64,000 bases of DNA from the NCBI RefSeq assembly GCF_018304945.1, contig NZ_JAGQEE010000002.1, forward strand, positions 372,001-436,000, in the 5' to 3' direction. The notes below the pieces were generated by a model that was not told where the DNA came from, searched no databases, and saw only the letters and a program-made list of their open reading frames with translations. Within the stretch, counting starts at the first letter, position 1; each line of letters starts with the position of its first letter. The stretch is from Collimonas humicola. GTDB taxonomy: Bacteria > Pseudomonadota > Gammaproteobacteria > Burkholderiales > Burkholderiaceae_D. The translations under genes were made by a program, and so were the position numbers. Positions 31,523 to 36,333 of the stretch are shown here, piece by piece.

Positions 31523-32359
31523 ATGCCCATACACGTCATCCATAACCGTCGCCTGTATCAACAAATCGCCGATCAGCTGCGCGACATGATTGACCGCGGC
31601 GAATACGGTCCCGGCGACAACCTGCCGCCCGAACGGGAGCTGGCCAAGCAGTTCGGCGTCAGCCGCACTTCCGTGAGGGAAGCCTTGATTGCGCTGGAAG
31701 TCATCGGGATTGTCAGCGTGCGGGTCGGCAATGGCGTGACGGTGCTGCCGCCCGAGGAGCAGGCCGCAGCCAAGGATGAAGCCAAGCCATCGGCGCTGCA
31801 GCAGGCCGCGCGCCGCAGCGGCTGGGAAATCGATCCGGAACTCGACCTGGAAATCAGCCACGAGCTCGACGATGAAATCCCGCCGTTCAAGCTGCTGCAG
31901 GCGCGCCGTCTGGTTGAGCCGGAAACCGCCGCCCTCGCCGCAGTCAACGCCACCGACGAGCAGCTGCGCAGCATCGCCGCAGCGTATGCGCGCAATGTCG
32001 AAGACAACCGCAACGGTTCGCATACCCATCCCGGCGACCGCCTGTTCCATATCCGCATCGCCGAAGCCAGCGGCAACCCAGCCTATCTGCTGCTGGTCAG
32101 CCATCTGCTGGGCCGCAAGTACGGCATGATGTTCCAGCGCCTGCAAACGCTGTACACCTCGAAAGACATGCCGAACCGTTCAGAGCATGAACACCAGCTG
32201 ATCCTGGAAGCGCTGCAGGCGCGCGATCCGGTGGCTGCGCGCAAGGCGATGCGCGCCCACATGGATTCGGTGGTGAAGATTTTTTCCCGTTCGGTGCCGG
32301 AGCACAGCGTCAAATATCAACCGGATCCACTTCCAAAGACCACTTCGCGCGCGTCTTGA
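31523..32359 (+). CDS. FadR-subfamily GntR transcriptional regulator
   Basis: 278 residues. The GntR winged helix is at about residues 8-75 ('[20 protein letters not shown]' to '[19 protein letters not shown]'). A long acidic linker follows, then an all-helical FCD ligand domain (about 125-255) with '[17 protein letters not shown]' and the His pair in '[18 protein letters not shown]' and '[11 protein letters not shown]' that binds metal. It is divergent from the mutarotase and probably controls it. Its last 50 bases overlap the 3' end of priA on the other strand. Confidence 0.92.
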
Positions 32360-34352
32360 TCTGCCGCAGTTCGGCCATCCAGTCGCCCAGGAAAGCCTGC
32401 AGGCCGGGACGCGACGGGCACTCGATCAGCAATTGCGCGCGGTCGACGTTGGCGACCCGGGTCATGGTCATCGGAATCGGATCATGCATGGTGATGCCCT
32501 CGTGCTCGATGCAATGGGCCGCCTGCTGCAGGAATTCAATCGCAGTTTCCAGCTCTTTCGCTTCTGCACGCAATAAAGCCTGGTAGATGTAAGGCGGCAA
32601 GCAGGCTTGTGCGCGCTCTTCCAGCAAGGACGTGGCGAAGTGGTCATAATCGTGGGCGATCACGGCGGCATACAGCGGATGCTGCGGATAGCGCGTCTGG
32701 ATCAGCACTTCGCTGGGACTGCCGCCCTCTTTCTGGGCGGCGCGGCCGGCGCGGCCGGCCACCTGCATCAGCTGCGCAAACAGCCGTTCGCTGGCGCGGT
32801 AGTCGTGGGAAAACAGCGCTGTATCCGGATTCAGGATGCCTACCAGCGTCAGGTTTTTGAAGTCATGTCCCTTGGCCACCATCTGGGTGCCGATCAAGAT
32901 ATCCACCTCGCCATTGTGGACACTGTCGAATGCGGCTTGCGCGCTGCCCTTGCGGCGGGTCGAATCGGCATCGATGCGCAGCACCCGCGCTTCCGGAAAC
33001 ATGGCTTGCAGCCCTTCTTCCAGTCTTTGCGTGCCGCGGCCAAGCGGCTGCAAATCGATATTGCCGCAGGTCGGGCAGGATTTCGGGATGCGCAACTCCA
33101 GGCTGCAGTGATGGCAGCGCAGCCGATGCTCGGGTTTGTGCAGCACCATGAAAGAAGTGCAGCGGGTGCAGTTGCTGACCCAGCCGCAGGCGTCGCAAGC
33201 AATCACCGGCGCATAGCCGCGCCGGTTCAGGAACAGCAGCGACTGCTCGCCGCGTTCCAGCCTTTGCTTCAGTGCGCTGACCAGGGTCGAGGTCAGGCCT
33301 TCGCTGGGTTTGTCGCGCTCCATGTCGATCCGGCGCACCTTCGGCAACACCGCATCCTTGACCGCGCGCTCGCGCAGTTCCAGTTTCTTGTAGCGGCCGG
33401 ACTGCGCGTGATGCCAGGTTTCCAGCGACGGCGTGGCGGAGCCCAGCACGATCGGGATGCTCAGCTGATGGGCGCGCCATACCGCCAGATCGCGCGCCGA
33501 ATAGCGCAAGCCTTCTTGCTGTTTGTAGGAGGGATCGTGTTCCTCGTCGATGACGATGAGCTTCAAATGTGGCAAGGAAGCCAGCACCGCCAGCCGCGTA
33601 CCCAGGATGATGCGCGCCTGTCCCAGGTGCGCCGCCAGCCAGTGGCGCATGCGCTCGCCTTCGGCCAGGCCGCTGTGCAGGGTGGCCACCGTGACACCGG
33701 GGAAACGGGCGCGGATATTCCCTTCCAGCTGCGGCGTCAGGTTAATTTCCGGCACCAGGATCAGGATTTGCGAGAGGTTGTCGGCGCCGTTCTCGTTGTG
33801 CGCCAGAATCTGCGCTGCCGCTTGTAAATAGACCTCGGTCTTGCCGCTGCCAGTGACGCCATATAAAAGGGTAGGCGCAAAACCGGTGGCGCCGGCGATC
33901 GCATCGGCCGCCTGCTGCTGCGCCGGATTGAGCCGCGCCACGTCGATCGGCGTGGCGTCGTGCGCGCTGCCGGCCTGCTGCAATTTCTTCAATCCACGGT
34001 CCAGGGCGACCGGCTTTTGCGCCCGCAAATTCTTCGGCAAGCCCGGCAAGGCCACCTCGCCCAGCGGCCGCTGATAGTAGTCGGCGGCAAAGCGGCACAG
34101 CGCCAGCCATTGCGTCGACAAGGGCGGCAGCTGATGGCGTACGGCTTGTACATTTTTTAATTTTTCGACAGGAACGTCGCTCTCGTCGCTGAGGCCGACG
34201 ATCATGCCCACCACTTCGCGCCTGCCGAACGACAGTTGCACCAGCTGGCCGACCTGCGGCGCAGGCTCGCTGTCGTCGCTGGCCTGCCAGCGATAATCGA
34301 AGCTGCTATCGAGGGGGGTATCGAGGACGATTTGAAGAATGCTTTGTTTCAC
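32310..34352 (-). CDS. priA: Primosomal protein N' (PriA helicase)
   Basis: 680 residues; restarts stalled replication forks. Walker A is '[15 protein letters not shown]', the DEEH box is '[13 protein letters not shown]', and '[11 protein letters not shown]' is motif III. The zinc site is Cys-rich: '[13 protein letters not shown]', 'CHHC', 'CPTCG'. Late helicase motifs are '[13 protein letters not shown]' and 'QVAGRAGRA'. It begins [20 protein letters not shown]. Convergent with a FadR-type gene and overlapping it by 50 bases. The region upstream holds the DnaA-box repeats. Confidence 0.96.
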
Positions 34353-34388
34353 GAACTTAATGTGATTCCCGAAGAAATAGGCTAACTG

Positions 34389-34443
34389 TCGGTTTCATAA
34401 GTGCTTTTGAAAGTGCCCGCATTATCTGTGGATAACTTTGTGG
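34389..34443 (+). repeat. 55-bp direct repeat, copy 1 (ends in DnaA box pair)
   Basis: Starts TCGGTTTCATAAG and ends TGTGGATAACTTTGTGG. Copy 2 lies at 34832-34886; the first 24 bases differ at two positions and the last 17 are identical, while the middle 14 are largely different. Confidence 0.9.
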
Positions 34444-34831
34444 ACAACGTCAGCTACACATTCAAAAACAGCGTGTTTACATCTGATTCTGGCTTTTGCC
34501 AATACTGAAATAAAAATTAATATCTTTTTAAATCAAAGACTTAATTTATACGCTACGGAGGGAAAAAATTTCCGGCGTATTTAAAAAATGGCCTTGCGGA
34601 AACTAAATTATGTGCATAACTAAATTTCGAATGTTCCAAAATGGAGCACAAAAGGTAACATTCATGTCGGCATCCGAAACCGGCACGATGCACCATCATG
34701 TGACTTTTTTCGTAGAATCCATCCCATTTTGTTCCGGAAAAATTAGCGGCGCGTCAACTGTGGTGAAATCATCAAGATTTCAAATTCGTAAGATTCCACT
34801 TAAAGTAAAACATGAGGAAACGCCCTAAGCA

Positions 34832-34886
34832 TCGGTTTCATAAGCGCTTTTCAAATTATCCACAATGTCTGTGGATAACTTTGTGG
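34832..34886 (+). repeat. 55-bp direct repeat, copy 2 (adds one extra DnaA box)
   Basis: Same start and end as copy 1, 443 bases away. In this copy the middle segment contains TTATCCACA (34856-34864), giving two opposed perfect DnaA boxes 5 bases apart. Confidence 0.9.
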
Positions 34887-35167
34887 GTAACCTGCTCTTG
34901 ACAGGCTGCAGCCTCATATTTGATGCGGGTTTCAATACATTGCCTAAACTAAAAGCAGAAAATATATCCTTAAAAATCAAATACTTACAAAACACAATCC
35001 GTCTGCAAAATAAAAATATCGATATAAATAATTACCGTGGTGCAGCAGATTTATTTTGTGCATAACTAGCGGCTATGGATGTCCGCAGCCGTGCTGAATG
35101 TGTTATGCGTGACGCTATGTGACAGTAAAATTTTCCGCAAGGAAATCTAAAAGCCGCTTTGCCAGCC

Positions 35168-36247
35168 CTATGCGCGCAACTTGCGGCTGATTTCGTGGAC
35201 CGCATCCACCATCACCGCCACCGATTCCGGCGGCGTAAATTGCGAAATGCCGTGGCCGAGGTTGAAAACGTGGCCGTGGCCGGCTTGCGGGGTGCCATAG
35301 GCGTCCAGCAAGCGGCTGACTTCGCTGCGGATCTGTTCAGGATTGGCAAACAGCACGGCAGGATCGAGATTGCCCTGCAGCGCGACGCGGTCGCCGACGC
35401 GGGCGCGCGCTTGCGCCAGGTTGACGCTCCAGTCGAGGCCGACGGCATCGGTGCCGATGTCGGCGATCTCCTCCAGCCAGAGGCCGCCGCCCTTGGTAAA
35501 GACGATCGCAGGAATCGGCACGCCGTCTTTCTCGCGCTTGAGCTGGGACATCACCTGGCGCATGTAGTCCAGCGAAAATTCCTGGTAGGCGCCATCGGCC
35601 AGCGCCCCGCCCCACGAATCGAAAATCATCACGGCCTGCGCGCCGGCATCGATTTGCGCATTCAGGTAGGCCGCCACCGCTGCCGCGTTGGTGCTGAGCA
35701 CGTGATGCATCAGGTCCGGGCGGTTGTACAACATGGTCTTGACGGTATGGAACTCGCGCGAACCCTCGCCTTCCACCATATAACAGGCCAGAGTCCAGGG
35801 GCTGCCGGCAAACCCGATCAGCGGCACCCGTCCGTCCAGTTCAGTGCGGATTTGCGTAACGGCCTTGAAAACGTAGTCCAGCTTGGCCAGATCCGGCGCC
35901 TGCAGCGCCATTACGTCTTTTTCATCGCGCAGCGGGCGTTGGAACTTGGGCCCTTCGCCATCGGCGAAATACAAACCCAGCCCCATGGCGTCCGGCACTG
36001 TCAGGATGTCGGAAAACAGGATGGCGGCATCCAGCGGAAAGCGGTCCAGCGGTTGCAGCGTGACTTCGGTGGCGTAATCGGGATTGGTCGCCAGGCCCAT
36101 GAAAGACCCGGCGCGGCTGCGGGTTTTACGATATTCCGGCAGGTAGCGGCCAGCCTGACGCATCAGCCACAGAGGCGTGTATTCGGTCGGCTGGCGCAGC
36201 AGCGCGCGCAGGAAGGCATCGTTCTTCAGGGGGGCGAATTGTGACAT
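35168..36247 (-). CDS. hemE: Uroporphyrinogen decarboxylase
   Basis: 359 residues; removes four acetate carboxyls to give coproporphyrinogen III in heme synthesis. '[19 protein letters not shown]' carries the conserved Arg residues, with '[17 protein letters not shown]' for the catalytic Asp and '[16 protein letters not shown]' later. The end is '[19 protein letters not shown]'. The start at 36247 ([10 protein letters not shown]) matches the family; a frame 12 residues longer is unlikely. Confidence 0.97.
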
Positions 36248-36333
36248 ATGAGGCAGTATGAATGCAGGTGATAACGGGCTCATTATCTCATCCTAAGCCC
36301 CTGCTGCGGCAACGCTTTGCCATATGGTCGGTA

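Follow-up and report, generated by a model that had tools for sequence, protein, structure and literature searches.

We find that the 815-bp gap between the genes priA and hemE of Collimonas humicola carries two tandem units in which predicted DnaA-binding sites (DnaA boxes) stand in a set order, orientation and spacing around a predicted site for integration host factor (IHF). The gap occupies positions 34,353-35,167 of the window, by which we mean the whole 64,000-bp stretch that was analysed (C17:372,001-436,000, from the 628-kb contig C17 of a 5.62-Mb genome in 24 contigs), and both flanking genes lie on the minus strand. The anatomy, conservation, phasing and position of the units can be read directly from DNA sequence, and the gap very probably holds a dedicated DnaA-IHF control element and not an origin. 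We interpret the units as an IHF-assisted DnaA control element of the kind represented in E. coli by DARS (DnaA-reactivating sequence) and datA, with the DARS type favoured, and give this interpretation a probability of roughly 0.6. The two E. coli precedents act in opposite directions, and which way the units act is the point of which we are least sure: DARS-type reactivation has about an even chance, datA-type inactivation is unlikely, titration of DnaA alone is improbable, and the rest falls to other modes of action.

The boxes are called I, II and III as in DARS, and the distal box is called D. Read toward priA, each unit consists of box D, 67-69 bp, the IHF site, 83-84 bp, box III, 3 bp and box II; in unit 2 the layout continues, after 5 bp, with an inverted box I. 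From start to start, box D lies 184 bp (unit 1) or 187 bp (unit 2) from box II, and the IHF site, which matches the consensus perfectly in both units, is 95-96 bp from box II. The parts found by the box and IHF scans are as follows.

34413-34619, minus strand: unit 1, priA-proximal, D-IHF-III-II, with box I decayed (box and IHF scans)
34413-34421, plus strand: place of box I in unit 1, GTGCCCGCA, degenerate (4 mismatches to TTWTNCACA); the Collimonas loci L064 and L105 have CTATCCACA here
34427-34435, minus strand: DnaA box II of unit 1, TTATCCACA (box scan)
34439-34447, minus strand: DnaA box III of unit 1, TTGTCCACA, with a single mismatch
34531-34543, plus strand: IHF consensus of unit 1, AATCAAAGACTTA (WATCAANNNNTTR, no mismatch)
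34611-34619, minus strand: distal DnaA box D of unit 1, TTATGCACA (box scan)
34856-35065, minus strand: unit 2, hemE-proximal, D-IHF-III-II-I, complete (box and IHF scans)
34856-34864, plus strand: DnaA box I of unit 2, TTATCCACA, inverted, its start 14 bp from box II
34870-34878, minus strand: DnaA box II of unit 2, TTATCCACA (box scan)
34882-34890, minus strand: DnaA box III of unit 2, TTACCCACA, with a single mismatch and 12 bp away from box II
34975-34987, plus strand: IHF consensus of unit 2, AATCAAATACTTA, no mismatch
35057-35065, minus strand: distal DnaA box D of unit 2, TTATGCACA (box scan)

Unit 2 has the three-box core of the E. coli DARS sites. Boxes I, II and III lie at 160(+), 174(-) and 186(-) of the bioD-uvrB gap in DARS1, and at 1136(+), 1150(-) and 1162(-) of our locus L145, in the rppH-mutH gap, in DARS2, with steps of 14 and 12 bp at both sites; the inverted box I and boxes II and III of unit 2 (34856+, 34870-, 34882-) follow the same steps of 14 and 12 bp. 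Passages of the DARS literature likewise describe three equally spaced core boxes at both sites, with box I opposite to II and III (PMC5742627, PMC8682772), and passages of DARS reviews describe head-to-head DnaA contact and a requirement for IHF at DARS2 (PMC5742627, PMC8682772, PMC4245941). In both Collimonas units the IHF site is on the box III side, and the genome encodes an IHF-alpha gene. DARS2 of E. coli has Fis sites (FBS2-3) as well. It is the presence of the box triad I-II-III that leads us to favour reactivation.

The same core recurs in units that were found without asking for it. Our search of the class, which we take to be Gammaproteobacteria in the GTDB sense, required box D, an IHF site and one box 80-100 bp further on, so that the remaining two boxes are nearly independent of the selection. 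When box offsets were counted from the box lying 93-100 bp from the IHF site, with at most two mismatches allowed in box III, the 27 units from outside the order Burkholderiales had box III at -12 in all cases (27/27) and an inverted box I at +14 in 25/27; the next-best offsets scored just 8 and 5. Closer to Collimonas, box III is present in 94 and box I in 73 of 94 'Oxalobacteraceae-like' units, a group sorted from locus titles and their order in the list and named for what we take to be the family of the Collimonas relatives. The corresponding numbers are 24 and 8 for the 26 units of 25 fetched non-family Burkholderiales loci, and 21 and 2 for 21 other named Burkholderiales units. The placement of the IHF site is similarly strict. 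A rule blind to IHF yields 57 box triads, spread over 38 of the 80 named loci. In all 57 the best IHF match within a range of 27-137 bp lies 95-97 bp from box II; it is perfect in 44 triads, has one mismatch in 12 and has two in a single triad.

Box D varies in distance, in discrete classes. With a search range of 150-205 bp before box II, a box D with at most one mismatch was found in 93 of the 94 Oxalobacteraceae-like units, starting 163-166 bp (28 units), 174-177 bp (38), 182-188 bp (25) or 197 bp (2) before box II, and never between these values. The 21 other named units have box D at 172-179 bp, and among 160 order and class sites 62 fall at 173-180 bp, 3 at 181-183 bp and 95 at 184-193 bp. 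Steps of ~11 bp fit one helical turn, and box D thus appears to keep its face of the helix as the length varies. We rely for this on the discrete classes and not on a Rayleigh test of helical phase (R over families of 0.45, 0.49 and 0.52 at periods of 10.5, 11 and 11.5), because its uniform null is unfair and R is still rising at 11.5. A phased box D with the IHF site always between points to a DNA loop.

The gap holds five TTATNCACA boxes and two one-mismatch boxes, compared to a mean of 0.054 and a maximum of 2 TTATNCACA boxes in 2000 dinucleotide shuffles of the gap; the box-IHF-box skeleton arose in 0/2000 shuffles, and two or more IHF consensus sites in 13/2000. An earlier sequence-only reading of the gap had already counted three perfect DnaA boxes (TTATCCACA), which we find at 34427-, 34856+ and 34870-, and at least four near boxes, which correspond to TTATGCACA at 34611- and 35057- and to the one-mismatch boxes TTGTCCACA at 34439- and TTACCCACA at 34882-. 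It had also described a duplicated 55-bp segment ending in TGTGGATAACTTTGTGG, with the 12-bp spacing of a box pair retained in both copies and an AT-rich stretch after each. All of this holds: the copies are 443 bp apart and identical at 47/55 positions, the 12-bp spacing is kept in both, and the stretches that follow are 67-68% AT, compared to 62% for the whole gap. The repeat extends beyond those 55 bp, however, and the repeated unit is ~200 bp, because an IHF site without mismatch and a distal TTATGCACA box accompany each copy at corresponding distances.

The gap has no recognised gene, as that reading had said. Open reading frames (ORFs) of at least 40 aa are short and mutually overlapping (the longest wholly within the gap is 72 aa), and we reject a hidden protein gene on this ground, the ORF products not having been searched for homologues. 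An RNA gene is likewise rejected, since an Rfam search of the gap gave no match up to E = 1, as is a plasmid-borne relative, since blastn of the 815 bp against a plasmid collection gave no match.

The element is widely conserved among relatives. PriA is 90-96% identical to its closest named relatives, all of them Collimonas, and under a relaxed pattern the element turns up in 15/15 genomes of the genus and never at a second locus, with two copies in 13 genomes and one in 2. The gap DNA matches 260 of 294 family genomes; outside the genus, among the matches listed, most span positions ~446-640 of the query, a stretch of one unit that begins to the left of box I and runs as far as the IHF site. 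A stretch beside the place of box I, GGTTTCATAAGYGCTTTT, is also duplicated (34390-34426 and 34833-34869); it falls inside the portion of the unit that matches other genera and may be a promoter or a part of the element. At least one unit is present in 73 of 80 named Burkholderiales PriA loci (115 units in all). The same rule found no unit in the other seven (L117, L126, L127, L128, L132, L140 and L142), among which the L127 sequence covers just 145 bases upstream of priA. Among 52 Oxalobacteraceae-like loci, 38 have two units, 12 have one and 2 have three, while the other 21 unit-bearing named loci have one each.

Pattern searches extend this range, and since they allowed no mismatch the counts are low, most genomes searched being without a match at such strictness. 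A strict D-IHF-II pattern matches 85 of 399 genomes of the order, and the looser D-IHF-box pattern 64 of 369 genomes of the class, 61 of them outside the order; the reversed control gave 0 in both searches, and flipping the IHF site in the class pattern also reduced the 64/369 to 0/369. Across the phylum the class pattern matches 31/398 genomes, one of them outside the class. This last genome (G1153) has a full D-IHF-III-II-I unit at C22:54691-54890 (L293) and stands outside the class by its kinship label; transfer, misplacement or a wider range of the element might each account for it. A named Alcaligenes faecalis chromosome has a single relaxed-pattern match, at the priA locus. One genome, G926, has four scattered full elements (C1:12976, 3233864, 4199497 and 4403806; L294-L297), one of them beside priA.

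The genes on either side of the gap are:

32310-34352, minus strand: priA, with Pfam PriA domains, downstream of the units in their own reading direction
35168-36283, minus strand: hemE, with Pfam URO-D, upstream of the units

This setting raises the possibility that the gap is a promoter region of priA (or hemE) under the control of DnaA and IHF. Indeed, among 30 loci fetched for the order hits priA is downstream in 30/30 and hemE upstream in 28/30; priA was also found in 12 of 27 loci fetched for distant class hits, and the element has the orientation of priA in all 42 loci with priA. In four additional distant loci there is a match to rpmE close by, weak in one case, and rpmE neighbours priA in E. 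coli. The rpmE-priA gap of E. coli has one near-box only, and the link to priA therefore does not extend to E. coli K-12. However, in 15 of the 27 distant loci no priA lies in the fetched stretch, and in five of these (L210, L211, L212, L222 and L232) the element sits between convergent ORFs, which are raw ORFs and not annotated genes. Together with the G926 copies, these loci argue that the element is not simply a priA promoter, and the second Oxalobacteraceae copy, several hundred bp upstream of the first, also speaks against one. We consider this explanation rather improbable.

An origin, or second origin, in the gap is the explanation we rate lowest, as extremely improbable. The gap does have DnaA boxes with AT-rich flanks, and the sequence-only reading had proposed it as a possible origin, but in two genomes the skew minimum and a cluster resembling oriC lie elsewhere. 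For the genome of the window, cumulative GC skew was computed on the one contig C17 and has its minimum at C17:463,392, 57 kb from the gap. About 7 kb from that minimum, and 49 kb from the gap, are six TTATNCACA boxes at C17:455,733-456,940; five of them, from 456,382 onward, sit between LysR-like and pyrB-like ORFs, so named from their translations. In this oriC-like cluster (C17:455.7-456.9 kb) AGTAGTAGTAG adjoins a box, which we take to resemble a DnaA-trio, and the boxes are arranged much as in E. coli oriC. An IHF scan found no strict IHF consensus in the cluster, and its DNA matches 73 of 116 family genomes. The dnaA gene is at 511.6 kb of C17.

In the closed genome of a relative, G054, the sign of the skew switches at the oriC-like cluster (2,040,047-2,041,356; fine skew minimum at 2,047,955), 42 kb from the priA element at ~1,998 kb. 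Skew there was sampled in 20 stretches beyond the 400 kb that surround the cluster. Of these, the 9 preceding it have negative skew except one (1.79 Mb, +0.002), and the 11 following it have positive skew except those at 2.70 Mb and 4.80 Mb, the latter past the half circle. Within those 400 kb, negative skew follows the cluster in one 20-kb bin (2.20 Mb). The oriC-like cluster of C17 is itself tandemly repeated, with two similar units at C17:456,300-457,000, outside the window, and at C1:2,040,047-2,041,356 of G054 we see three units of an AT-rich stretch, a AGTAGTAGT-like motif and a box. Separately, in the genome of the window, two perfect TTATCCACA boxes face opposite ways at C20:160770-160820, with 42 bp between them.

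According to the sequence-only reading, its proposal would fall if the skew minimum lay elsewhere and the boxes were missing from relatives; the skew minimum does lie elsewhere, but the boxes are conserved. Its second suggestion, an old duplicate, does not hold, since the units are conserved through the family and the order and hence are not relics, although box I of unit 1 has decayed. Its third, a DnaA reservoir, came nearest, in that the gap is likely to bind DnaA. Titration alone, in which strong boxes near oriC would soak up DnaA and leave its nucleotide unchanged, fits the density of boxes, the gap and the oriC-like cluster being jointly the densest TTATNCACA clusters of C17 (5 each per 815 bp), and fits the ~28-53 kb between priA element and oriC-like cluster in the 18 genomes listed with both on one contig; titration near the origin is also argued for E. 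coli in part of one paper (PMC12371093). However, a mere reservoir has no need of boxes in conserved order, orientation and spacing around a conserved IHF site, which is why we disfavour it, and the boxes concerned number only five to seven per genome. We hold titration alone to be improbable, slightly more so than a priA promoter.

DARS-type control would work as follows. A bend made by IHF would bring DnaA bound at box D into contact with DnaA at boxes III and II and, where box I is present, DnaA molecules on boxes I and II would meet head to head, as at DARS. At E. coli DARS such head-to-head contact makes ADP-DnaA release its ADP, and DnaA can then rebind ATP. At ~28-53 kb from oriC, the pair of units would be doubled soon after initiation.

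Several observations weigh against DARS-type reactivation. Unit 1 lacks the DARS core, with II and III kept and four mismatches in box I. Box I is missing in 21/94 Oxalobacteraceae-like units, in 18/26 pattern-fetched units of other Burkholderiales and in 19/21 other named units, so the defining DARS pair is not universally kept. An opposite-strand match at -11, overlapping box III, is present in 56/94 Oxalobacteraceae-like units. Finally, IBS2, which with one mismatch is the nearer-matching IHF site of DARS2, lies at 86 bp from box II compared to 96 here, and the E. coli DARS sites are far from oriC while the Collimonas units are close to it.

Two observations argue instead for inactivation: the units lie close to oriC, and most other Burkholderiales units have lost box I while retaining D-IHF-III-II. 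In a datA-type site, an IHF loop would join DnaA on box D with DnaA on boxes III and II after initiation, ATP would be hydrolysed and DnaA switched off. A position near oriC is also what part of one paper describes for datA (PMC10380432). E. coli datA, in our locus L177, reads box (745,+), 56 bp, IHF (810,-), 84 bp, box (907,+), and the order and orientation of its box 2, IHF site and box 3 are those of D-IHF-III in both units. In E. coli a further datA box, box 7, is essential. Its spacing of 56/84 bp compares with 67-69/83-84 bp in the units, the D-IHF gap being about one helical turn longer; a D-IHF gap of 58-60 bp is the other common value, found in many relatives. The phylum search returned five sites with a layout of 56-57 and 83-84 bp, which we take for datA because queG adjoins 5/5 of them and tRNA-Gly 4/5. 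Thus the class pattern, though not aimed at datA, recovers this known element. The five sites have no II/I pair, which is kept in 25/27 units outside the order and in 73/94 Oxalobacteraceae-like units, and a datA-type site is on balance unlikely, with DARS-type reactivation preferred.

The kind of element is already known. Part of one paper reports DARS1/DARS2-like sequences as conserved in many proteobacterial species (PMC10380432), another names beta- or gamma-proteobacteria near E. coli for DARS (PMC5742627), and a third describes the DARS2 core as conserved specifically in gamma-proteobacteria related to E. coli (PMC4245941). Our literature search, which covered titles and the starts of abstracts, returned no account of an element that combines the two layouts, of a site between hemE and priA, of copies in tandem or of a box D in helical phase, and an earlier partial sighting is possible. 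The DARS and datA literature reviewed here concerns E. coli and its close kin. A single layout that holds both, and that a short pattern picks out in many further genomes across the class, gives a handle on how DnaA may be cycled in bacteria without studied sites, and how the on and off switches arose becomes testable box by box. It also carries a warning for origin prediction, since dense, strong DnaA boxes close to oriC may belong to a control element.

Compared to known systems, the gap shares with the oriC-like cluster of its own genome DnaA boxes, AT-rich stretches and repeated units, but that cluster differs in having AGTAGTAGTAG next to a box, a place near the skew turn and no strict IHF consensus. 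Like DnaA titration clusters, the gap is a non-coding cluster of strong boxes near oriC; unlike them, it has a conserved spacing, orientation and IHF site. With E. coli DARS1 and DARS2 the units share the three-box core, the inverted box I and the steps of 14 and 12 bp, and with DARS2, as part of one paper describes it, IHF sites on the box III side (PMC4245941). They differ from DARS in forming a tandem pair near oriC and beside priA, in the decay of box I in unit 1, and in a distal box D of fixed orientation, which was not found in DARS2. A gene context shared with DARS1 or DARS2 is rejected, as E. coli RppH, MutH, YgdQ and the N-terminus of UvrB, used as tblastn queries, matched nothing in the 27 distant loci or in 45 loci. 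With datA the units share box-IHF-box in the same order and orientation, at a spacing close to that of datA between IHF and box III but about one helical turn longer between D and IHF, whereas datA has no II/I pair in such an arrangement and has tRNA-Gly and queG as neighbours, not priA. Judged by layout, one unit contains both the datA and the DARS arrangement, with box III and the IHF site common to the two. It is conceivable, though we think it doubtful, that the two opposite switches of E. coli, datA for off and DARS for on, came about when an ancestral IHF-looped D-IHF-III-II-I element was split into halves. This element would persist intact in many Gammaproteobacteria, in numerous cases upstream of priA, and might act in one direction or the other according to IHF and the nucleotide that DnaA carries; it would have been duplicated near oriC in Oxalobacteraceae, and in most other Burkholderiales would have drifted to the datA half through loss of box I.
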